A stretch of DNA of 64,000 bases, taken from positions 1 to 64,000 of the forward strand of contig DASPKU010000011.1 in the NCBI GenBank assembly GCA_035627955.1. Direction: 5' to 3'. The translations under genes and the position numbers were made by a program. Shown piece by piece: positions 15,726-60,556 of the stretch. The notes beneath the pieces are model-generated. The model was not told where the DNA came from, did not search any database, and worked only from the letters and a program-made list of their open reading frames with translations. The first letter of the stretch is position 1; every line of letters begins with the position of its first letter. Source of the stretch: Phycisphaerales bacterium (lineage in GTDB: Bacteria > Planctomycetota > Phycisphaerae > Phycisphaerales > UBA1924).

Positions 15726-16538
15726 CTACGGCGTTCCTTTCGCCCCACCCCCCGCCGCAACCTCGACCCGCTCCCGAAGCGCTCGCCGCCGAAGCGTATT
15801 GAGCAGGGTCGCGCTCAGCGCCACCCACGAGAACGCCACGGCCTGCGCCGCCAGCACGTCCGTCAGGTAATGAACGCCCAGGTACATCCGCGTGAACGAC
15901 ACCACCACGATCAGCAAGCCCGCCACCGCCACCACCCTCACGCGGTTCCTCGCCCCCCGCACCGACCGCACCAGAATCACCGCCACCGCCGTGTACAGCA
16001 GCGTGGCCCCCGCCACGTGCCCGCTCGGGAAGCTGTACCCGTGCGCACTCGCCAGCGGTTCGTCGAAGACGGGTCGCGCCCGCAGGAACGCGTGCTTCAG
16101 TGCCGTGTTCAGCGCCAGACCCGCCGGCACGCTCAGGAACAGGAACAGCGCCCGCCACCGCTCTCCTGCCTTCCAGAACAACCCCGCGAGCACCAGCCCC
16201 GTCACGATCACGACCACCGGGTCACCCAGCCCAGTCAATGCCAACATCACCACCGTGAGCCCCGCGCTCGCGCTGTCGTGCAGCCACTCCGCCACCGCTC
16301 CATCCCACCTCGCGATGTCGTCCTGCTCGTGCACTGCATCCGCGATCTCGACAAACGCCCACAGCCCGGCCGCGATGGCCAGCACCCCGATTGTGAATGA
16401 AAGCCCCAGGTGCCCCCTCCGGCTGAGCCGCCCGCGCACGAACAGCAGCACCACCATCGCGGCCTGCCGCCACCACGCACTCGACCTCAGCACTTTCACC
16501 TCCTCATCCTGCGCCCCCGTCCTCAAGCACCGCCGCAA
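15726..16538 (-). CDS. PAP2-family membrane phosphatase
   Basis: The 270-residue integral membrane protein shows the three PAP2 motifs: KHAFLRARP, YSFPSGHVAG and SFTRMYLGVHYLTDV (containing R and H-xxx-D). These form the active site for undecaprenyl pyrophosphate or phosphatidic acid dephosphorylation at the outer face of the membrane. About six TM helices are visible. A GTG 14 codons downstream is an alternative start. It heads a four-gene minus-strand cluster (PAP2, lipid kinase, phosphoesterase, lipoprotein) with gaps of 2-15 nt. Confidence 0.9.
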   Translation of the reverse strand: MRRCLRTGAQDEEVKVLRSSAWWRQAAMVVLLFVRGRLSRRGHLGLSFTIGVLAIAAGLWAFVEIADAVHEQDDIARWDGAVAEWLHDSASAGLTVVMLALTGLGDPVVVIVTGLVLAGLFWKAGERWRALFLFLSVPAGLALNTALKHAFLRARPVFDEPLASAHGYSFPSGHVAGATLLYTAVAVILVRSVRGARNRVRVVAVAGLLIVVVSFTRMYLGVHYLTDVLAAQAVAFSWVALSATLLNTLRRRALRERVEVAAGGGAKGTP

Positions 16539-24224: not shown

Positions 24225-24318
24225 TGAGACGGTGAGTGGGTGAGACGGTGAGACGGTGAGGGATCGCCCCTCGACGCCCGCTGTTGCTTGCCCGCTGTTC
24301 CCTCCACTCCCCGTCTCA
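24225..24318. repeat. TGAGACGG quasi-palindromic repeat
   Basis: Left arm 24225-24262 is made of TGAGACGG/TGAG words at 7-9-nt spacing; a shorter complementary arm (CCACTCCCCGTCTCA) lies at 24304-24318. It starts 5 nt after the stop of the zinc-ribbon gene and precedes the PGRP amidase. Same architecture as the AAGTGGC elements, different word. Confidence 0.6.
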
Positions 24319-27853: not shown

Positions 27854-27895
27854 GGAGGACTAGGACTCATAGGAGGCATAGGACTGATAGGAGCG
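27854..27895 (+). repeat. GACTCATAGGA repeat arm, left of the four-helix-bundle gene
   Basis: Imperfect copies of GGACTCATAGGA/GGCATAGGACTGATAGGA with about 10-nt spacing, ending GGAGCG 5 nt from the stop of the four-helix-bundle gene. The opposite flank of that gene (28461-28500) carries the same words in inverted orientation, so the gene sits in the loop of a large inverted repeat. Confidence 0.85.
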
Positions 27896-32261: not shown

Positions 32262-32298
32262 AAGTGGCAAAGTGGCAGAGTGGCTAAGTGGCAAAGTG
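32262..32298 (+). repeat. Lone arm of the AAGTGGC element
   Basis: 37 nt built of AAGTGGCAAAGTGGC and AGAGTGGC words, matching the left arms at 39037, 40593, 40991 and 49699. It begins 4 nt after the stop codon of the L,D-transpeptidase. No complementary right arm follows; instead a strong terminator starts 13 nt later. It is a solo arm or a decayed element. Confidence 0.88.
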
Positions 32299-32310
32299 TG
32301 AAAGACAGAA

Positions 32311-32339
32311 GGCCGCGCCTGGGTGGGCGCGGCCTTTTT
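32311..32339 (+). terminator. Rho-independent terminator
   Basis: GGCCGCGCC (32311-32319) pairs with GGCGCGGCC (32326-32334) around a 6-nt loop, followed by five T. It ends the L,D-transpeptidase transcript. Confidence 0.88.
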
Positions 32340-32340
32340 C

Positions 32341-32375
32341 ATTTCCGCTTTCCGGTTTCCGCTTTCCGGTTTCGG
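32341..32375. repeat. TTTCCGCTTTCCGG quasi-repeat
   Basis: Two direct copies of TTTCCGCTTTCCGG lie between the terminator and the stop codon (32377-32379) of the convergent lipoprotein gene. No complementary arm was seen. Confidence 0.5.
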
Positions 32376-38389: not shown

Positions 38390-41300
38390 ATGCAAGAACT
38401 GCCCAAACAGTACCGCCCCGCCGAGCACGAGGACCGCATCTTTGACCGCTGGATGGCGAGCAAGGCCTTCCACGCCGACCCGACTCCCGTCCTTTCGGGG
38501 GAGCGCGAGCCGTACTGCGTGCTGATCCCGCCGCCCAACGTCACGGCCGCGCTGCACCTGGGGCACGCCCTCAACAACACGATCCAGGACATCCTGGTGC
38601 GGGCCCACCGCATGATGGGGTACGAGACGCTGTGGATGCCGGGGACGGACCACGCGGGCATCGCCACGCAGGCGGTGGTCGAGAAGCGGGTGATGAAGGA
38701 GGAGAAGAAGCGCCGCACGGACTTCACGCGCGAGCAGTTCATCGCCAAGATCCAGGCGTTCAAGGACGAGTACGAGGCGACCATTACGAACCAGCTGAAG
38801 AAGATGGGCTGCTCGTGCGACTGGGAGCGGCAGCGGTTCACCATGGACCCGATCTGCGCGCGGGCGGTGCGCGAGGCGTTCTTCCGGCTGTTCCGCGACG
38901 GGCTCATCTACCGCGGCAAGCGGCTGGTGAACTGGGACCCGGTGCTGCAGACGGCGATCGCGGACGACGAGATCGAGAACATCGAGATCGACGGGGCGTT
39001 TTACTACTTGCGATACCCGCTAGTGCGGCCGGCGGAAAGTGGCAAAGTGGCGGAGTGGCAAAGTGGCAAAGTGAAGGATGCCACGACCAATGCCTCCTCT
39101 TCGCACTCTGCCACTTTGCCACTTGGCCACTCTGCCACTTCCCCCGTGACATGGTCGGAGCTGGCCCGCGCCGGGTACCCGGGGGCCGAGGGGATGCCAG
39201 CGGACGAACGCGCGTACGTCACGGTCGCGACCACGCGCCCGGAGACCTACCTGGGCGACACGGCCGTCGCGATCAACCCCAGGGACCCGCGGGCGAAGGC
39301 GCTGCAGGGGCTGCACGTGGAGCTGCCGCTCGTGGGCCGCGTGATCCCGGTGATCGCCGACGAGTACGTGGTGATGCCCTCGGCCAAGGGGCCGTACGGC
39401 GCCGCGCTCAACCTGCGCGAGAGCGACGAGCCCGAGGACCCCAAGGCCGCGTTCGCGACGGGGTTTTTGAAGGTGACGCCCGCGCACGACCCCAACGACT
39501 ACGAGCTGGGCCGCAAGCACGGCCTGCCCATGATCAACGTGATGGCGCCCGACGCGTCCATCAGCGACAAGCACGGCTGGACGGACGTGGGCGACGCCCA
39601 CCTGTTCGTCGGCAGGAAGCGCGAGGAGGCGCGCAAGCTGGTCGTCAAGGAGTTCGAGGCCCGCGGCCTGCTGGAGAAGGTGCAGCCGTACCGGCACACC
39701 GTCGGCCATTCGGACCGCAGCAAGGCGGCGATCGAGCCGTACCTGAGCGACCAGTGGTACGTGCGGGTAACGGACGACCGTTTATCGGGCTCGGCCAATC
39801 GTGCGCTGGTTCGCGACCAGCGGACGAACGCTGGCCATCCCCCGGCGCGCTCAGGGGAGGCTCTGGCGCGAGTTGTTGAGGCTCCGGCGCGGTTTGTTGA
39901 GGCTCCGGCGCGATCTGCTGAGGCTCCGACGAGGTTTGTTGAGGCTGCGGCGCGATCTGCGGAGGCTCCGACGAGGTCCGCAAAGGCCCATTCGGCGACG
40001 CCCGGTGACACCGTGGACGGCGACGGCTCGCTGCGGTTCCACCCGGCCCGTTATTCGCGGACCTACGAGCTGTGGCACGACAACATCCGCGACTGGTGCA
40101 TCTCGCGGCAGCTGTGGTGGGGGCACCGGATCCCAGTGTGGAGCAAGAAAGTCACTCTGACCGCGGAAAACTGGTTCCGCGAGCTCGATCAGAACCCATA
40201 TACGGGCGGCCTTTCGCTGGGCGACTTCTTCAGCGGAAGTGTGCCCGGCGCATCAGTCCGCTGCTTCAACCTGAACACCGGGCATGAAGAGCCGATCGGA
40301 GACTTGGCTCCGCTCAAGGACCTTCTCACGGGCGACTACATCATCTATATCTGTCTTCTCGACGACGCGATCGCGAAGAGGCACAGGCTGGAATCATTCG
40401 GTTTTGAGCAGGACCCCGACGTCCTCGACACCTGGTTCTCCTCCGCCCTGTGGCCCATCTCCACGCTGGCGTGGCCGGAGGACACCGACGCGCTGCGGGC
40501 CTTCAACCCCAGCAGCACGCTGTGCACCGCCCGCGAGATCATCACGCTGTGGGTGTCGCGGATGGTGATGTTCAATCGGTACTTCCGGCAAGAAGTGGCA
40601 GAGTGGCAAAGTGGCGAAGTGGCAAAGTGCCCGACGCCCGGCCCCCACTCTGCCACTTTGCCACTTGGCCACTCTGCCACTTTCCGCGCTGGCCCCGTGC
40701 CCTTCCGCGACGTCTTCATCCACTCCGTCATCCAGGACGGCGAGGGGCGGAAGATGAGCAAGACGCTGGGCAACGGCGTCGATCCGCTGGACATCATCGC
40801 CACGCACGGCGCCGACGCGATGCGGTTCACGCTGTGCCACATGACGACGCAGACGCAGGACGTGCGGATGCCGGTCGTGAAGGACTCGGCGAGCGGGAAG
40901 AACACGTCGCCCAAGTTTGACCTCGGGCGCAACTTCGCGAACAAGCTGTGGAACGCGGCGCGGTTTGCGCTGGGCATCCTGGGGGACGAGAAGTGGCAAA
41001 GTGGCGAAGTGGCAAAGTGGCAAAGTGACAAAGGCACTTCGCCCGATGCTGCTGGTTCTGCGTCCTCCACTTTGCCACTTGGCCACTCTGCCACTTTGCC
41101 ACTTGTTGATCGCTGGATGCTCTCCCGCCTCTCCGTCGCGGTTGAGGCGTGCAACACGGCCCTTAAGGAGTTCCAGTTCGCCGACTACGCGACCACGATG
41201 TACGACCTCTTGTGGCGGGACTTCTGCGACTGGTACCTGGAGGCGATCAAGCCCACGGTCGCGGGCGATCCGCGGCAGCGGGCGGTGCTGGCGGCGACGC

Positions 41301-41977
41301 TGGACACCATCCTGCGGCTGCTGCACCCGGTGATGCCGTACGTGACCGAAGCCATCTACGAGCAGTCGCGGACGATCAGGACCGACGCGGTGCCCGGGAT
41401 TGAGCTCGGGGACGCACGCAAGGACGGACTGCTGGCGACCGCGGGGTGGCCGAAGGTGTCGGCTTCGCTGCGCAACGAGAACGCCGAGCGCGAGTTCGAG
41501 GAGCTCCGCGGCTTCATCACGGCCATCCGAGAGGTGCGGGCCCAGCACAACGTGGCGCCCAAGCGGAAGGTCACGCTGCACTTCCCGCCGCAGCTGCTGC
41601 GGGGCGGCTCGTTCCTGGGCGACCTCATGGACCCCACGAACCCCGTGCACACGCTGGTGCCGACGCTCGCGGGCGTGGCGACCATGGTCAACTCGCCGCC
41701 CAAGGGGCCGTCCGTCTCCTTCCCATTCAGCGCCCACGAGTTCAAGGTGAGCGACCTCGCCGACGAGGCCACCATGGACACTGGCGCGGAGAAGGCCCGC
41801 CTGGAGAAACTTGTCGCTGACCTCGACAAGTCCATCGCAACCTTCGAGGGCCGGCTCGCGAACCCGGGGTACGCCCAGAAGGCCCCCCCGCACATGGTGC
41901 AGCAGACCAAAGACCAGCTGGAGAAGGCGAAGGCCGAGCGGGCCGCGGCCGCGGCGACGCTGGCGACGCTTTCCTGA
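38390..41977 (+). CDS. valS: Valine-tRNA ligase carrying four in-frame repeat expansions
   Basis: ATG 38390 gives 1195 residues against the usual 880-950. All class I landmarks are intact: PPNVTAALHLGH (HIGH-type, 48-59), WMPGTDHAGIATQ, the editing-domain VATTRPETYLGDTAVA, WWGHRIPVW, DVLDTWFSSALWP, KMSKT (788-792), the anticodon-binding LWRDFCDWYLEAIKPTV and the C-terminal coiled coil. The excess comes from three palindromic AAGTGGC elements (residues about 216-251, 735-764, 868-905), a 21-bp tandem array (about 485-534) and an atypical segment of about 90 residues after WSKK where many ValRS have a zinc ribbon. Every insertion keeps frame and falls between conserved blocks, so the enzyme is probably active. 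No second valS is visible in the window. Confidence 0.95.
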   Translation: MQELPKQYRPAEHEDRIFDRWMASKAFHADPTPVLSGEREPYCVLIPPPNVTAALHLGHALNNTIQDILVRAHRMMGYETLWMPGTDHAGIATQAVVEKRVMKEEKKRRTDFTREQFIAKIQAFKDEYEATITNQLKKMGCSCDWERQRFTMDPICARAVREAFFRLFRDGLIYRGKRLVNWDPVLQTAIADDEIENIEIDGAFYYLRYPLVRPAESGKVAEWQSGKVKDATTNASSSHSATLPLGHSATSPVTWSELARAGYPGAEGMPADERAYVTVATTRPETYLGDTAVAINPRDPRAKALQGLHVELPLVGRVIPVIADEYVVMPSAKGPYGAALNLRESDEPEDPKAAFATGFLKVTPAHDPNDYELGRKHGLPMINVMAPDASISDKHGWTDVGDAHLFVGRKREEARKLVVKEFEARGLLEKVQPYRHTVGHSDRSKAAIEPYLSDQWYVRVTDDRLSGSANRALVRDQRTNAGHPPARSGEALARVVEAPARFVEAPARSAEAPTRFVEAAARSAEAPTRSAKAHSATPGDTVDGDGSLRFHPARYSRTYELWHDNIRDWCISRQLWWGHRIPVWSKKVTLTAENWFRELDQNPYTGGLSLGDFFSGSVPGASVRCFNLNTGHEEPIGDLAPLKDLLTGDYIIYICLLDDAIAKRHRLESFGFEQDPDVLDTWFSSALWPISTLAWPEDTDALRAFNPSSTLCTAREIITLWVSRMVMFNRYFRQEVAEWQSGEVAKCPTPGPHSATLPLGHSATFRAGPVPFRDVFIHSVIQDGEGRKMSKTLGNGVDPLDIIATHGADAMRFTLCHMTTQTQDVRMPVVKDSASGKNTSPKFDLGRNFANKLWNAARFALGILGDEKWQSGEVAKWQSDKGTSPDAAGSASSTLPLGHSATLPLVDRWMLSRLSVAVEACNTALKEFQFADYATTMYDLLWRDFCDWYLEAIKPTVAGDPRQRAVLAATLDTILRLLHPVMPYVTEAIYEQSRTIRTDAVPGIELGDARKDGLLATAGWPKVSASLRNENAEREFEELRGFITAIREVRAQHNVAPKRKVTLHFPPQLLRGGSFLGDLMDPTNPVHTLVPTLAGVATMVNSPPKGPSVSFPFSAHEFKVSDLADEATMDTGAEKARLEKLVADLDKSIATFEGRLANPGYAQKAPPHMVQQTKDQLEKAKAERAAAAATLATLS
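39037..39140. repeat. AAGTGGC palindromic element A inside valS
   Basis: Left arm 39037-39073 and right arm 39104-39140 (37 nt each) are inverted copies differing at about four positions, with a 30-nt loop. Left words are AAGTGGCAAAGTGGC; the right arm holds the core CCACTTGGCCACTCTGCC. It encodes SGKVAEWQSGKVK ... HSATLPLGHSAT between a catalytic-domain strand and the editing domain. Confidence 0.95.
39844..39990 (+). repeat. 21-bp tandem array inside valS
   Basis: Seven consecutive 21-nt units of the form GGCGCGRTYTGYTGAGGCTC plus C occur at 39844, 39865, 39886, 39907, 39928, 39949 and 39970. They encode a heptad alternating EAPARFV and EAPARSA/EAPTRSA (also EAAARSA). Unit length keeps the reading frame. 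It lies after the conserved YVRVTDD segment and before the WHDNIRDWCISRQ block. Confidence 0.92.
40593..40682. repeat. AAGTGGC palindromic element B inside valS
   Basis: Arms 40593-40629 and 40646-40682 (37 nt each) are inverted, with a 16-nt loop unrelated to the other loops. It encodes EVAEWQSGEVAK ... HSATLPLGHSAT between the SRMVMFNRYF helix and VPFRDVFIHSVI, upstream of KMSKT. Confidence 0.95.
40991..41104. repeat. AAGTGGC palindromic element C inside valS
   Basis: Arms 40991-41027 and 41068-41104 are inverted, with a 40-nt loop. It encodes EKWQSGEVAKWQSD ... STLPLGHSATLPL at the junction of the catalytic core and the anticodon-binding domain. Its right arm is shifted by one word relative to A and B but contains the same core in the same reading phase. 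Confidence 0.95.
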
Positions 41978-47201: not shown

Positions 47202-47372
47202 GCTCAGCGTCCTTGCTTGCCCGCGGCGGCGGGCCTTTCTTTGCGGCGAGCTTTCGAGAGCGTCCTTGCCCTCAAACCACCCGCCGTAAACCGCGTTCCG
47301 TGCCTCTCGGCAGCGGCCGCAATGGTACTGCATTTCCTGCGCGTTTCAACGACGCGCAACTATCCACAGACT

Positions 47373-48448: not shown

Positions 48449-48712
48449 CCGCGGAGTTGCGCGGAGTGAGCGGAGATGCGCGGAGAACGCATTGTTAACG
48501 CGAAGAGCGCGAAGGGGGAGCAAAGGCGCGAAGGTGGAGAAGACGGGATCGGACCAGGAAGATGAAGGAGGAAAGCCCATGAGAGTGTCCGAAGTACTCG
48601 TCTTCCGTCTTCCCATCCCCTCTTCGCGCCTTCGCTCCCCCTTCGCGATCTTCGCGTTCACACTGCCCTGCCTTTCTCCGCAGAACTCCGCTCACTCCTC
48701 GCAACTCCGCGG
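48449..48712. repeat. Nested double palindrome between rsmH and the histidine kinase
   Basis: The outer arms 48449-48485 and 48676-48712 belong to the CGCGGAG-word family (CCGCGGAGTTGCGCGGAGTG start, CTCCGCGG end). Inside them, 48497-48534 (AACGCGAAGAGCGCGAAGGG start) and 48622-48658 (ending TTCGCGTT) form a second inverted pair with a different word. The innermost 87 nt has further partial complementarity (GAAGACG near 48538, CGTCTTC near 48599). The whole fills the divergent intergenic region. No gene is inside. Confidence 0.88.
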
Positions 48713-48753
48713 TAGAGCCTTCCCCTTGACCGCACCCCTAAACTCCCCGACTC

Positions 48754-50046
48754 ATGACGCCCCCCCACGCCCCCACCCTCGAAACCCTCCGCGACCTGCA
48801 CGAGACTCTCTCCCTGGCGATGAAGGGCGGGCGGATGGGCTGGTGGACGCGTGACCTCGCCACCAACACGGTCGTCTGGTCCCCCGAGCTTGAGCAACTG
48901 TTCGGCCTGCCGCCGGGGGGCTTCCCCGGCTCCGAGCAGGCGTTCTTCGACCTTGTGCACCCCGACGACCGCAAGGCCGTGGGCGACGAGGTGGCCGCGG
49001 CCATCATGCAGCAGCGCGACTACGTGATCGAGTTCCGCTTCCGCCACGCGAGCGACCACCCCAGCGTGTGGCGGTGGATGGACGGGCGCGGCCGCGCGGT
49101 GTACGTGAACAACCGGCCGACGATGCTCTACGGCATCGGCATCGACATCACCGACCGCCGCCGCGCCGAGGACACCATCCGCGCCAACGCGGCCAAGCTG
49201 GAGCAGCTGCTCGCCGACGCCGACGCCCACCGCACCGACCTCACCCGGGCCAACCGCGACCTCACCGACTTCGCCCACATCGCCGCCCACGACCTCAAGG
49301 AGCCCTTCCGCACGATCAACTTCCAGGCCAGCTTCATCCTCGACGACCACCGCGCCGCGCTGCCCGGGGACGCCATCAAGAAGCTCGAGGGCATCCAGAA
49401 GGCCGCCGTCCGCGGCGGGCGCCTCGTGGACGAGATGATGCGCTTCGCCCGCAGCGGCGACGTCAAGCTCAGCGACTCGCCCGTCGAGCTCGCCGCCCTG
49501 GTCTACGAGGCCGCGAGCACGCTGCCCGAGTACAAGGAGAAGAAGGTCGAGCTCACCATCGAGCCCAACCTCCCCTCGCTGAGCGTGGACCCCGTCGCCC
49601 TCTCGCAGGTCTTCCAGAACCTCCTCGCAAACGCGGCCCGCTACAACAGGAGCGAGGTGAAGCGGGTGCGGGTGTACGCCCGCGAAGCGGGCGGGGAAGG
49701 TGGCAAAGTGGCAGAGTGGCAAAGTGGCAAAGTGAAAGAGAATGCCCCCGGCGCTCCCGCCTTTCCCGCCTCTCACTCTGCCACTTTGCCACTTGGCCAC
49801 TCTGCCACTCCCGCCTTCATCTCCATCTGCCTCTCCGACAACGGCGTCGGCATCCCGCCCAATCAGCGGTCGACCGCGTTCCGCATCTTCAAGCGCCTGC
49901 ACCGCGAGGAGGACTTCGGCCCTGGCAGCGGCGTGGGGCTGGCCATCGTCAAGAAGATCGTGGAGGGTCACCGCGGCGAGGTGGTCATTGAAGACAACCC
50001 GGAGGGGCAGGGGTCCGTGTTCGTCATCACCCTGCCCCGGCGGTAG
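48754..50046 (+). CDS. PAS-domain sensor histidine kinase with palindromic insert
   Basis: 430 residues, soluble. A PAS_3-type domain (about 15-135; VVWSPELEQLFGLPP, VHPDDR, GIGIDITDRRRAE) is followed by a coiled-coil linker, HisKA with FAHIAAHDLKEPFR (phospho-acceptor H179) and HATPase_c with QNLLANAARYN (N box), DNGVGIP (G1) and GSGVGLAIVKKIVEGH (G2). Residues about 316-352, between the N box and G1, come from an AAGTGGC palindromic element. No response regulator is adjacent. The kinase core resembles phytochrome-like kinases. Autophosphorylation should still be possible because all boxes remain. Confidence 0.9.
   Translation: MTPPHAPTLETLRDLHETLSLAMKGGRMGWWTRDLATNTVVWSPELEQLFGLPPGGFPGSEQAFFDLVHPDDRKAVGDEVAAAIMQQRDYVIEFRFRHASDHPSVWRWMDGRGRAVYVNNRPTMLYGIGIDITDRRRAEDTIRANAAKLEQLLADADAHRTDLTRANRDLTDFAHIAAHDLKEPFRTINFQASFILDDHRAALPGDAIKKLEGIQKAAVRGGRLVDEMMRFARSGDVKLSDSPVELAALVYEAASTLPEYKEKKVELTIEPNLPSLSVDPVALSQVFQNLLANAARYNRSEVKRVRVYAREAGGEGGKVAEWQSGKVKENAPGAPAFPASHSATLPLGHSATPAFISICLSDNGVGIPPNQRSTAFRIFKRLHREEDFGPGSGVGLAIVKKIVEGHRGEVVIEDNPEGQGSVFVITLPRR
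49699..49809. repeat. AAGTGGC palindromic element D inside the histidine kinase
   Basis: Left arm 49699-49734 and right arm 49774-49809 (36 nt each) are inverted, with a 39-nt loop. It encodes GGKVAEWQSGKVK ... SHSATLPLGHSATP in the same phase as element A. It lies in the ATP-binding domain between two strands. Confidence 0.94.
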
Positions 50047-50207: not shown

Positions 50208-50537
50208 ATGAAGCTCTACGTCGGTAATCTGTCGTTCAACACGTCCGAGGGTCAGCTCCGCGAGATGTTCGAGGCCTTCGGCCCCGTCGCCTCCGCGTCG
50301 CTGGTCATGGATCGCGACACCGGCCGCCCCCGCGGCTTCGGGTTCGTCGAGATGAACGACGCCTCCCAGGCCCAGGGCGCCATGGCCGCCCTCAACGGCA
50401 AGAACGTTGACGGTCGCGACCTCACCGTGAACGAGGCCAAGCCTCGCGAGGCGGGCGGCGGCGGCGGTCGCGGCGGCTTCGGCGGCAGCCGTGGCGGCGG
50501 CGGTGGTCGCAGCAGCGGCGGGCGCGGCGGCTGGTAA
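50208..50537 (+). CDS. RRM-domain RNA-binding protein with glycine-rich tail
   Basis: 109 residues: a single RRM with RNP2 LYVGNL (3-8) and RNP1 RGFGFVEM (42-49), then a Gly/Arg/Ser-rich tail from about 80. This is the form of bacterial cold-inducible RNA-binding proteins (Rbp/GRP-like). The 161-nt leader before the ATG may fold and regulate expression, as in cold-shock mRNAs. A perfect terminator follows. Confidence 0.93.
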   Translation: MKLYVGNLSFNTSEGQLREMFEAFGPVASASLVMDRDTGRPRGFGFVEMNDASQAQGAMAALNGKNVDGRDLTVNEAKPREAGGGGGRGGFGGSRGGGGGRSSGGRGGW

Positions 50538-50650: not shown

Positions 50651-52150
50651 ATGCACATGAGCACGACGGGGGGCGCCCATCAGCATCAGCACGGCGGCGA
50701 GCGCGGCCGCGCGGCGGCCAACCTCAAACGCGAGGACAACGCCGCCGCCGGCCTGGCCGCGTGCGACATCACGCCGGAGCTCGAGCGTCGCCAGTCCCGC
50801 GAGCGCGACTACGACCGCGAGCTCGCGGCCATGCGCCGCCTGGGGGCGAGCTTCGGCGGGAGCCCCGAGCACATCTTCGACACTCTCGCTCTGGAGGCCC
50901 TGGCCATGACCGGCGCGGGCAGCGCAGGGCTCACGCTCAGCGAGGTCCTGCCCGGCGGGGGGCACACGGTGCGCTGGTCGTCGCTGGCGGGCGTCATGAA
51001 GGGGCACGACGCCCCGCAGGTCGCGTGGCACGAGAGCATCGGCGGCGCCTGCATTCAAGCGGGGCGGCCGCTGCTGTACAAGGACCCCGCCATCGCCTTC
51101 CCGCGCCTGGCGGACCTCCGGCCGCTGATGCGGGAGGCGCTGGTGGTCCCCGTGCCGGGGCCGCACGGCGGGATTCAGGGCGGCAGCGCGGGCTCGGGGT
51201 CGGCGGCGTTCGGCCACGGCGGGCGCGACACCTCGCAGGTGCACGGGCCCATCGGGGCCGTGTGGGTGGCGCTGCACGAAGGGCAGGTCCGCACCGGGCC
51301 CAGCGGGGAGAACGGCGGGGCCCGGGTGCCCTTCGACCGCGAGGACGTGCGGCTGCTCACGGCCCTGGCGGTGTTCGCGGGCGCGGGCGTGGTGGCGGCC
51401 AAGCTCCAGGAGGAGAGCAACATCGCGCGGCGCGAGGCCGAGCAGGCGGCCGAGGACCTTCGCCGCAGCAACCGCGACCTCGACGAGTTCGCGCAGATCG
51501 TCGCCCACGACCTCAAGGAGCCGCTCCGCGGCGTCCGCGCCTATGCGGAGATGGTCCGCGACGACGCCGGGGCGGTGCTCGACCCTGCCAGCCTCGCGCG
51601 GCTGGAGTCGGTCGGGCGGCTGAGCGAGCGCATGAGCGGGATGATCGGGGGCCTGCTGGAGTACGCCCGCGCGGGGCACGGCGAGCTCAAGGTCGAGCGG
51701 CTGGAGCTGGGCACGCTGGTGCACGACGCGTTGGACGCTGTGCGCTGGCTCGTGGAATCCGAACGCGTGCAGGTGACGGTCGCCAGCGGCCTGCCCGCGG
51801 TGCGCGGCGACCGCTCCCTGCTGCTCCAGGTCCTGACCAACCTCCTGAGCAACGGCATCAAGTACAACCGCTCGCCGCTCAAGACCCTCGAGGTCGAGGA
51901 CAGCGAGCAGCACGGGGAGGTCACGCTCCGCATCCGCGACAACGGCCTGGGCATCCCGGCGGAGGAGCGCGACAGCGTCTTCCGCATGTTCCGGCGCGGG
52001 CGGGCCGCGGCCGCCGTGGCCCCGGGCACCGGCGTGGGCCTCGCCATCGTGCGCCGCATCGTCGAGCGGCACGGCGGGCGGGTGTGGGTCGAGCCTCGGC
52101 CTGACGGCCAGAGCGGTTCGGTGTTCTGCCTCACGCTGCCGCAGGCGTGA
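50651..52150 (+). CDS. GAF-domain sensor histidine kinase
   Basis: 499 residues with no TM helix. A His/Gly-rich N-terminus precedes a GAF domain (about 70-265; IFDTLALEALAMTGAGSAGL, ESIGGACIQAGRPLLYKDP, REALVVPVPG). HisKA follows with FAQIVAHDLKEPLRG (H286), then HATPase_c with QVLTNLLSNGIKYN, DNGLGIPAEERD and GTGVGLAIVRRIVERHGG. It is related in its kinase core to the PAS kinase 700 nt upstream, with the RRM gene between them. The TGA stop is the first repeat word of a GTGACAGAGC array. Confidence 0.9.
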   Translation: MHMSTTGGAHQHQHGGERGRAAANLKREDNAAAGLAACDITPELERRQSRERDYDRELAAMRRLGASFGGSPEHIFDTLALEALAMTGAGSAGLTLSEVLPGGGHTVRWSSLAGVMKGHDAPQVAWHESIGGACIQAGRPLLYKDPAIAFPRLADLRPLMREALVVPVPGPHGGIQGGSAGSGSAAFGHGGRDTSQVHGPIGAVWVALHEGQVRTGPSGENGGARVPFDREDVRLLTALAVFAGAGVVAAKLQEESNIARREAEQAAEDLRRSNRDLDEFAQIVAHDLKEPLRGVRAYAEMVRDDAGAVLDPASLARLESVGRLSERMSGMIGGLLEYARAGHGELKVERLELGTLVHDALDAVRWLVESERVQVTVASGLPAVRGDRSLLLQVLTNLLSNGIKYNRSPLKTLEVEDSEQHGEVTLRIRDNGLGIPAEERDSVFRMFRRGRAAAAVAPGTGVGLAIVRRIVERHGGRVWVEPRPDGQSGSVFCLTLPQA

Positions 52151-52800: not shown

Positions 52801-52848
52801 GTCACTCTGTCACTCTGTCACTCCGTCACTCCGTCACTCCGTCACTTC
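52801..52848 (-). repeat. GTCACTCC octanucleotide array
   Basis: Six 8-nt units (GTCACTCT twice, GTCACTCC three times, GTCACTTC) end inside the desaturase gene: the complement of 52842-52844 is its TGA stop. It is the inverted counterpart of the array at 52145-52214, but with period 8 rather than 10. Confidence 0.85.
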
Positions 52849-57710: not shown

Positions 57711-59408
<1,698 letters not shown>

Positions 59409-59423
59409 CGGGTGTACCGGCAA

Positions 59424-59534
59424 GCTCCGCCCCGTCGGGGCGGAGAGGATGTGCGCGAGCTTCCACGGGTTCCGCTCGCCCGCGGACGGGCTCGCTCCAC
59501 CCGCGGCTACAGCACTGAGCCCCGTTCGGGGCTC
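59424..59534 (+). repeat. REP unit 1 of the Y1-transposase locus
   Basis: Contains the hairpin AGCTCCGCCCCGTCGGGGCG, then CTTCCACGGGTTCCGCTCGC, the block CTCCACCCGCGGCTACAGCA and the terminal hairpin GAGCCCCGTTCGGGGCTC. Repeated at 59571, and in part at 59735 (inverted) and 60328. Confidence 0.85.
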
Positions 59535-59570
59535 GATGCACTGAGCCCCGATCGCTGCTCGAGGGATCCA

Positions 59571-59683
59571 GAGCTCCGCCCCTCCGGGGCGGTAAGGATG
59601 TGCGCGAGCTTCCACGGGTTCCGCTCGCCCGCGGTCGGGCTCGCTCCACCCGTGGCTACAGCACTGAGCCCCGTTCGGGGCTC
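59571..59683 (+). repeat. REP unit 2
   Basis: Direct copy of unit 1, starting AGCTCCGCCCCTCCGGGGCG, with CTCCACCCGTGGCTACAGCA and the same end hairpin. A truncated copy of the end block (GCACTGAGCCCCGATCGCTG) lies between units 1 and 2. Confidence 0.85.
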
Positions 59684-59734
59684 AAGACAGCATGGGCACG
59701 ATCAATTTTCATTGTGACTACTTCCCCCTGGCCT

Positions 59735-59868
59735 TTGGCCCCGAACGGGGCCGAGTGCTGTAGCCACGGGTGGAGGTCGCCTCCGGCGACCGGAACCCGT
59801 GGACAAGGACGCCGTTATTCTCTCTTCCTCTCTCCCTTTCCCGCCCCGGAGGGGGCGGAGCAAGGAGC
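59735..59868 (-). repeat. REP unit 3 (inverted), upstream of the transposase
   Basis: GGCCCCGAACGGGGCC, TGCTGTAGCCACGGGTGGAG and CGCCCCGGAGGGGGCGGAGC are the reverse complement of unit blocks in order, ending at the transposase ribosome-binding site (AAGGAG). It faces unit 4 across the gene. Confidence 0.82.
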
Positions 59869-59874
59869 CATGGC

Positions 59875-60327
59875 ATGCCCGGCACGTACTCGCAGATTCT
59901 GCTGCACGTCGTCTTCTCCACGAAGCGCCGTCTCCCCTGGCTTACTGCTGACATCCGGCAACCTGTCTACGACTACATCGGCGGCATCATCCGAGGCGAG
60001 AAGGGCGTGCTCCACGCCATCGGCGGGGTCGAAGACCACGTCCACATGTACTTCCGCTGGCGCACCGACATGTGCATTTCCGATCTGATGCGCAATGTGA
60101 AGGCACACTCCTCCCTCTGGGTACACCAGAACTACACCGCGCTCCGCGACTTCGCATGGCAGGAGGGCTACAGCGTGTTCTCCGTCAGCAAGTCGCAGGA
60201 GCCCGCGGTCAAGCTGTACATCGCGAACCAGGCCGAGCACCACGCGAAGGAAGACTTCAAGTCCGAACTTCTGCGCATGCTGCGGTTGCACGAGATCGAT
60301 TTCGAGGAGCGGTACGTCTTTGACTGA
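59875..60327 (+). CDS. REP-associated tyrosine transposase (RAYT, Y1/IS200-like)
   Basis: ATG 59875, 7 nt after AAGGAG, gives 150 residues. The HUH metal motif is EDHVHM (HVH at 55-57) and the catalytic tyrosine is probably Y115 in AVKLYIANQAEHH, giving the Y1-transposase order of IS200/IS605 TnpA. A C-terminal basic helix (FKSELLRMLRLHEI) fits RAYTs. There is no TnpB. REP units in inverted orientation flank the gene, as expected for a host-adapted TnpA that acts on REPs. All catalytic residues are present, so it may be active. Confidence 0.9.
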   Translation: MPGTYSQILLHVVFSTKRRLPWLTADIRQPVYDYIGGIIRGEKGVLHAIGGVEDHVHMYFRWRTDMCISDLMRNVKAHSSLWVHQNYTALRDFAWQEGYSVFSVSKSQEPAVKLYIANQAEHHAKEDFKSELLRMLRLHEIDFEERYVFD

Positions 60328-60428
60328 TGCTCCGCCCCCTTCGGGGCGGCGACGGTCTGCCTGCTTGCCACGAGTTCCGCGGCGAAGCGCCGCTCCACCC
60401 GTGGCTACAGCACTGCTCCCATTCGGGA
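60328..60428 (+). repeat. REP unit 4, downstream of the transposase
   Basis: CTCCGCCCCCTTCGGGGCGG hairpin, GCCACGAGTTCCGCGGCGAA, then CTCCACCCGTGGCTACAGCA and a degraded end (CTGCTCCCATTCGGGA). With inverted unit 3 it encloses the transposase gene. Confidence 0.82.
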
Positions 60429-60556
60429 CGCGAGCCACGGCCCCGCACGTCCGCTAGCGAGCCTCACCTTCGCGCATCCCCCGCCCCCACCGCCCCTTGC
60501 CGCAGGCCGCGAGAAATCCCGCGGAAATCAGGCATCCGCCCGCGACCGCCCGCGTA

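Follow-up and report, generated by a model that had tools for sequence, protein, structure and literature searches.

The palindrome inside a sensor kinase gene at positions 49699–49809 of the window (the whole 64,000-nucleotide stretch of DNA analysed) is a member of a dispersed repeat family in this bacterium (a planctomycete, in all likelihood, and probably one of the Phycisphaerae), whose arms are tandem arrays of the hexamer AGTGGC and a two-base spacer (AGTGGC-N2). Most likely, the family is a non-autonomous repeat for which the single arm is the spreading unit, and the kinase copy is a convergent pair of such arms, tolerated in frame. The features discussed below are collected in Table 1.

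Table 1. Coordinates of the repeat arms, palindromes and host genes in the window.
Feature	Position	Strand	Remarks
Single AGTGGC arm	32263..32302	+	Starts 4 bp beyond the stop codon of a + strand gene
G+C hairpin with T run	32311–32339		Between the arms 32263..32302 and 32342..32373; by eye
Opposed arm, GGAAA-NC family, period 7	32342..32373	-	Directly beyond the stop codon of the converging - strand gene
valS with three in-frame palindromes	38390..41977	+	
valS palindrome 1	39038..39139		Missing in relatives covering the site
valS palindrome 2	40594..40681		Missing in relatives covering the site
valS palindrome 3	40992..41103		Missing in relatives covering the site
Host gene, sensor kinase (PAS, HisKA, HATPase_c)	48754..50046	+	430 aa, frame intact
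Left arm of kinase copy	49699..49738	+	Four AGTGGC-N2 units plus AGTG, with G for the first A; spacers AA AG AA AA
Loop of kinase copy	49739..49769		Likeness to loops of other copies at chance level
Right arm of kinase copy	49770..49809	-	Four AGTGGC-N2 units; spacers AG CA AA AG
Single arm, sister family AGTGAC-N2	52801..52846	-	The - strand gene ending at 52842 takes its stop codon from the first unit

The kinase copy and its host gene

The kinase copy consists of two opposed 40-nt arms, built from 8-bp tandem units and separated by 31 nt. An inverted-repeat search delimited the arms as 49700–49738 and 49770–49808, 39 nt each and 87% complementary. The first-pass annotation had described inverted arms of 36 nt with a core shared with valS; the arms and the common core are present, and the length is corrected to 39–40 nt. 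The spacer set of the right arm is that of two of the valS right arms. The 14-mer GTGGCAAAGTGGCA, allowing up to two mismatches, had 32 matches in the window where 0.44 were expected, and none of 100 shuffles reached that number. The folding z-score of the copy was -8.6 as DNA and -9.4 as RNA (-80.7 kcal/mol).

When the kinase reading frame was searched against Pfam, PAS_3 and HATPase_c scored above their cut-offs and HisKA slightly under (26.4 versus 26.9 bits). The HATPase_c match covers residues 279–429 and runs across the insert. A fold search returned 382 matches, and the 50 listed were all histidine kinases or carriers of such a module. Those residues of the H, N, G1 and G2 boxes that are invariant in a five-sequence alignment have been retained. 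The insert, of about 40 residues, falls between two strands, one following the N box and the other preceding the G1 box, a location on which the alignment and the first-pass annotation agree. It was missing from all four aligned homologues, namely the neighbouring paralogue (50651–52150) and three from named contigs. No orthologue was found in 100 relatives at E ≤ 1e-40, and identity to seven named loci was only 22–33%, so the comparison at this site is with homologues rather than with an orthologous empty allele. Of the two outcomes that the annotation had named as refuting, an insert shared with distant relatives and a clear pseudogene, neither turned up: the aligned homologues lack the insert, and the kinase has kept both its frame and its motifs.

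In an AlphaFold2 model, residues 313–352 had a pLDDT below 50 (block means 31–40) and were flanked by strands 303–311 and 355–362. This supports the view that the insert is a disordered loop joining two neighbouring strands, with the caveat that the model is weak overall (mean pLDDT 59.5 from the five-sequence alignment) and supports a loop, not its details. The insert lies in frame and is open, and we infer that it is transcribed and translated as a disordered loop of about 40 residues within a kinase that would be expressed, folded and active.

Two further observations concern the surroundings of the gene. Directly 5′ of the kinase, at 48450–48715, lies a nested palindrome with outer arms of GCGGAG-plus-spacer units and inner arms of GCGAAG units (by eye). 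Between the two kinases, 50208–50537 encodes a small glycine-rich protein, which we take to resemble an RRM-type RNA-binding protein.

A dispersed family in this genome and in its relatives

The pattern GTGGC-N2-AGTGGC-N2-AGTGGC was matched 106 times in the 4.26 Mb genome, compared with four matches to the reversed-pattern control. We assigned 103 of the 106 matches to 31 loci, comprising 22 palindromes and nine single arms, and left three unlocated. Two palindromes, L054 and L144, have one decayed arm each and were left out of the analyses of the 20 with two clear arms, which span 88–123 bp; a two-unit pair at 16283 was set aside as a chance match. Eleven of the 31 loci sit within eight protein genes, all open in frame in the stretches examined: valS (three copies), the kinase, carB, an error-prone DNA polymerase (two copies, the assignment resting on two partial stretches), a UbiD-type menaquinone decarboxylase, dusB, metH and mfd. 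These genes were named by NCBIfam, and the scores for dusB, metH and the polymerase were under the curated cut-offs, making those names family-level. Gene positions outside the named families were taken from a codon-usage predictor, not a standard gene caller.

With 31 loci on many contigs and at least eight host genes, local duplication within valS is ruled out as an explanation, and the annotation was right to call it insufficient. Chance, local slippage or assembly artefact is hardly credible as a source of the family. Tandem arrays could be made by slippage, and some contigs of a relative, G048, end near arms, but one hexamer recurs at all 31 loci, the matches in the window far exceed expectation, the number of units is mostly four and conserved genes keep open frames.

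The valS gene was found in 60 of the 61 genomes searched. None of its three inserts was present in the relatives' rows that cover each site (21, 27 and 25 of 29 rows, read by eye; row L103 was a wrong ORF, and several rows were cut by sequence ends). The insert sites are loops of variable length among relatives, and some of these loops hold other repeats: an AGTGAC palindrome in G011, a AGCGAACA arm opposing an AGTGAC arm in G029, a GGCACGRA array in G024 and, in frame in loop 2 of G020 (L113), an inverted pair of GTAGG.. / GTAGGTCGGCTC type, which we take for a GTAG-type REP pair. The valS loops are tolerant sites, refilled repeatedly by different repeat families. Weak Y1_Tnp matches were seen inside the valS frames of G036, G002, G007, G016, G015, G063, G067 and G068, between aminoacyl-tRNA synthetase segments. 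The 100 relatives drawn included none of this genus and provided no strain-level empty site; we infer the mobility of the family.

Among the 101 genomes searched, this one included, the AGTGGC pattern occurred in 12 and was missing from 89. It was abundant in three: this genome, G048 (117 matches) and G060 (91). A 28-base form was found in four of 294 genomes of a phylum-wide draw, G048 and G060 not among them. The sister hexamer AGTGAC occurred in eight of the 101, and was abundant mostly outside the AGTGGC-rich genera. Reversed-pattern controls also gave matches (33 in G049 and eight in G035 for AGTGGC, 18 in G028 for AGTGAC), and other tandem octads therefore exist in those genomes. At the loci examined in G048 and G060, 20 stretches that are a subset of their copies, there were 11 and 9 single arms versus 0 and 4 paired ones, respectively. 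Several G048 contigs (L145, L146, L148 and L153) end less than 1 kb from an AGTGGC arm, as if the repeats break assemblies, and copy numbers in G048 may be underestimated. Two contigs from a viral collection (L168 and L170), which are G+C-rich with a mirror-like gene layout, carry three single AGTGGC arms each.

Arm anatomy and the unit of spread

The build of the copies is uniform, with mostly four units plus AGTG per arm, although some arms have three, five or more; the outer flank usually ends in GA. Mismatches to the hexamer numbered three among 228 positions for copies in genes and 11 among 468 for intergenic copies (14 of 696 in total). This count omitted the pair used for detection as well as the innermost unit; it came from a search favouring intact hexamers, in which an arm was extended only where four or more of the six bases agreed. 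About half of the spacers, meanwhile, differ from AA. That the hexamer is nearly invariant while the spacers vary suggests that it is read by some factor.

Because 8 and 3 have no common factor, an AGTGGC-N2 array encodes one cyclic octapeptide whichever frame is read, SGKVAKWQ and variants, with LPLCHFAT on the opposite strand. The kinase peptide is nearly equal to that of valS element A, as the first-pass annotation had pointed out, but this likeness follows automatically from the 8-bp period and is not independent evidence. An 8-bp period is a simple way for an insert to read alike in every frame. On average 4.4 of the six frames were open for copies in genes (n = 8) and 4.25 for copies between genes (n = 12), compared with 1.73 and 1.77 after shuffling; the in-gene copies showed no special openness. 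When weighted by the base composition here, 74% of octamers give arrays that are open in all six frames, so that the openness of the arms needs no special cause. Three things would make the kinase insert tolerable: its site is a surface turn that varies in length, most spacer pairs give arms without stop codons in any of the six frames, and any frame yields the same hydrophilic octapeptide.

The first-pass annotation had taken the whole palindrome as the element. The palindrome is there, but it is probably the wrong unit, as its arms behave separately. The 20 loops resembled each other at chance level (best score 22, reached by nine of 100 shuffles), and were unrelated even at 39038, 40594 and 49699, whose right arms have one spacer pattern (AG CA AA AG, also found at L009, L054 and L055). 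Spacers were equal within one hairpin at 24 of 79 positions, against 29.3 ± 3.7 for swapped arms. The arms of one hairpin thus match no better than arms from different hairpins, and neither selection for arm–arm pairing nor correction of one arm by the other was seen. Opposed arms from different families were seen by eye at six places: 32263–32373 in the window, a further locus of this genome (L006), the G029 valS and three G060 loci, where AGTGGC opposes AGTGCC. Because the arms are independent, the loops unrelated, the pairs mixed and the hexamer fixed, and because single arms are placed after stop codons (see below), the unit of spread is probably the single arm and not the palindrome.

It is possible, but in our judgment unlikely, that a transposase working in trans moves an RPE- or MITE-like palindrome as one piece, together with its loop, and that loops decay fast whereas arms are kept as the recognised ends. 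Most of the 20 palindromes do have a uniform 4 + 4 build and polarity, and same-family palindromes prevail in this genome, making up 22 of the 31 loci, more than independent arrivals of arms would readily yield. In-gene, in-frame elements of such a kind are known as well (PMC2229807, PMC10969869). Movement of the whole palindrome sits poorly, however, with loops that are unrelated even where the right-arm spacers are the same, with the mixed-family pairs and with the single arms, which are common here and prevail at the G048 and G060 loci examined. Nor did inspection by eye of the flanks of AGTGGC copies reveal an obvious target duplication, though inverted arms are present.

On the reading that we prefer, in which the arm spreads, a single arm would be recognised via its fixed hexamer, and a hairpin would form when two arms, sometimes of different families, meet facing each other from both flanks. 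Such an origin is suggested by the independence of the arms, the unrelated loops and the mixed pairs. In the kinase, two convergent arms would have come together, in frame, at the turn between strands of the ATP-binding domain. A more radical version, which we consider speculative and improbable, is that arms are a new class of dispersed unit, written inwards from the flanks, which would make palindromes the scars of convergent addition. In each arm a constant hexamer would alternate with free spacers of 1–4 bases, about four times over some 36 bp, and the hexamer would vary by family and genus (AGTGGC, AGTGAC, AGTGCC, ATAGGA, GCGGAG and others). Arms would be added 5′ to 3′ from the flank inwards, often after a stop codon and on both sides at once, for example if both 3′ ends at a break were extended on a template and then joined. 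If true, this would account for the independent arms, unrelated loops, fixed polarity, mixed pairs and single arms. We know of no precedent for the writing of tandem repeats into a bacterial chromosome in this manner.

No enzyme that might mobilise the arms was found in a transposase search of this genome, done with Y1_Tnp. Mobilisation as a REP/REPIN system by a RAYT (Y1 transposase) is very unlikely. There are nine Y1_Tnp matches in the genome, and the G020 valS holds the presumed GTAG-type REP pair. REPs enter genes as well, as described in PMC3733652. However, the eight matches that are listed are each at a distance of over 10 kb from every copy seen, although a RAYT might still act in trans, and the arm is not itself palindromic and carries neither a GTAG nor a CGTC tag. 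The Y1_Tnp gene in the window (59887–60231, in the region 59400–60480) is flanked by its own, different repeats, of CCCCGTTCGGGGCTC and GTAGCCACGGGTGGA types; we take this gene for a RAYT with its REPs. The distance of the Y1_Tnp matches and the different repeats flanking the window gene thus disfavour a RAYT/REPIN origin.

Placement after stop codons and known systems

Of 27 single intergenic arms from the stretches examined in G000, G048 and G060, 14 are sense-oriented and start no more than 20 bp beyond a stop codon, and no arm does so in antisense. Random intergenic placement gave backgrounds of 0.049 and 0.051, respectively (P = 5e-12 for the enrichment; P = 1e-4 for the 14:0 orientation). 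Counted as misses among the 27 were L047 and several G048 loci at contig ends, which had no upstream gene call. L045, a single arm in antisense, is 22 bp away from a stop, barely beyond the 20-bp cut-off. The ten two-armed palindromes between genes of the same direction all start 2–13 bp from the stop, and eight of them leave at least 17 bp before the next start.

Hexamer arrays of other families are found in similar positions. A 464 kb sample of this genome contained 21 intergenic arrays of any family, ten of them within 20 bp of a stop; judged by the purine-rich strand, eight of the ten were sense and two antisense (window 27869 and 28497, both ATAGGA). Other arrays of 7–10 bp units lie between genes of the window at 24225, 25110, 27861, 28497, 30134, 43274, 47368, 52145 and 52801. 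Measured from the end of a stop codon, eight of these nine start between 6 bp before and 13 bp after it, those at 27861 and 28497 with the purine-rich strand in antisense; the one at 47368 starts at 37 bp.

That single arms follow stops in one orientation suggests either that they act as RNA at mRNA ends or that their copying is tied to the direction of transcription. We doubt, nevertheless, that the repeat is at heart a 3′ UTR RNA element, in which sense AGUGGC-N2 arrays would bind a protein or protect mRNA ends and the in-gene copies would be tolerated by-products. The sense arms within 20 bp after stops speak for it, as does the combination of a fixed hexamer with free spacers, which resembles repeated binding sites; one arm, at 32263, lies between a stop and a terminator-like hairpin (by eye). 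On the other hand, more than a third of the loci (11 of 31) are in genes, palindromes also bear an antisense arm, the pattern is missing from most genomes searched, no partner protein was identified and Rfam gave no match at gathering score in 32200–52900 of the window. With the arm as the spreading unit, a role in RNA at mRNA ends is compatible, and may explain the persistence of the copies that follow stops.

To our knowledge, protein-coding palindromes have been described chiefly in Rickettsia and Wolbachia, and the usual interpretation is of selfish DNA in reduced genomes. According to PMC6649704, such palindromes also occur in the mitochondria of Nematomorpha. In the present case core enzymes of a 4.26 Mb genome contain them, and their anatomy allows a direct question, whether the moving unit is the arm or the palindrome. 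The Rickettsia palindromic elements (RPE) and their Wolbachia counterparts are presented in PMC2229807 and PMC10969869 as palindromes of about 105–150 bp with many copies, in frame in conserved genes and intergenic. The AGTGGC palindromes are like RPE in size, in number and in their in-frame presence in protein genes. Unlike RPE, they belong to a host of another lineage, have arms of four hexamer-plus-spacer octads and share similarity in the arms only; arms also occur alone, oppose arms of other families and often follow stops. By analogy, the repeat would work like Rickettsia palindromic elements, with another lineage and build, and we claim membership of neither RPE nor REP. Bacterial MITEs with open frames (ERIC, Correia, QMITE and the MITEs of Coxiella) are non-autonomous and may fuse in frame, as PMC2229807 and PMC5896051 state; the target duplications and common body sequence of several such MITEs were not seen in AGTGGC copies.

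REPs, as portrayed in PMC3733652, are short units, single or in inverted pairs, mostly downstream of genes, with in-gene ones often in replication and repair genes. The AGTGGC units are likewise short and single or in inverted pairs, but the arm consists of direct octads without an internal palindrome or tag, and no linked RAYT was seen near the copies among the eight Y1_Tnp matches listed of nine. The TAACTGA heptamer repeats of Beggiatoaceae, cyanobacteria and Bacteroidetes, in tandems of two to six units in a Beggiatoaceae genome, are treated in PMC4679880 as gene-oriented, suspected post-transcriptional sites that have spread without an evident mechanism. AGTGGC arms share with them the organisation as sets of short tandem units oriented to genes. 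In contrast, that study places most sets of the Beggiatoaceae genome just before start codons, with stops in all frames of the forward sets, one inverted set versus 169 direct and a constant unit where the present family has a fixed hexamer and a free spacer. Searches of one open-access library listed no description of the AGTGGC family. New here are the fixed hexamer with variable spacers, the unrelated loops, the independent arms, the mixed-family pairs and the sense placement after stop codons.
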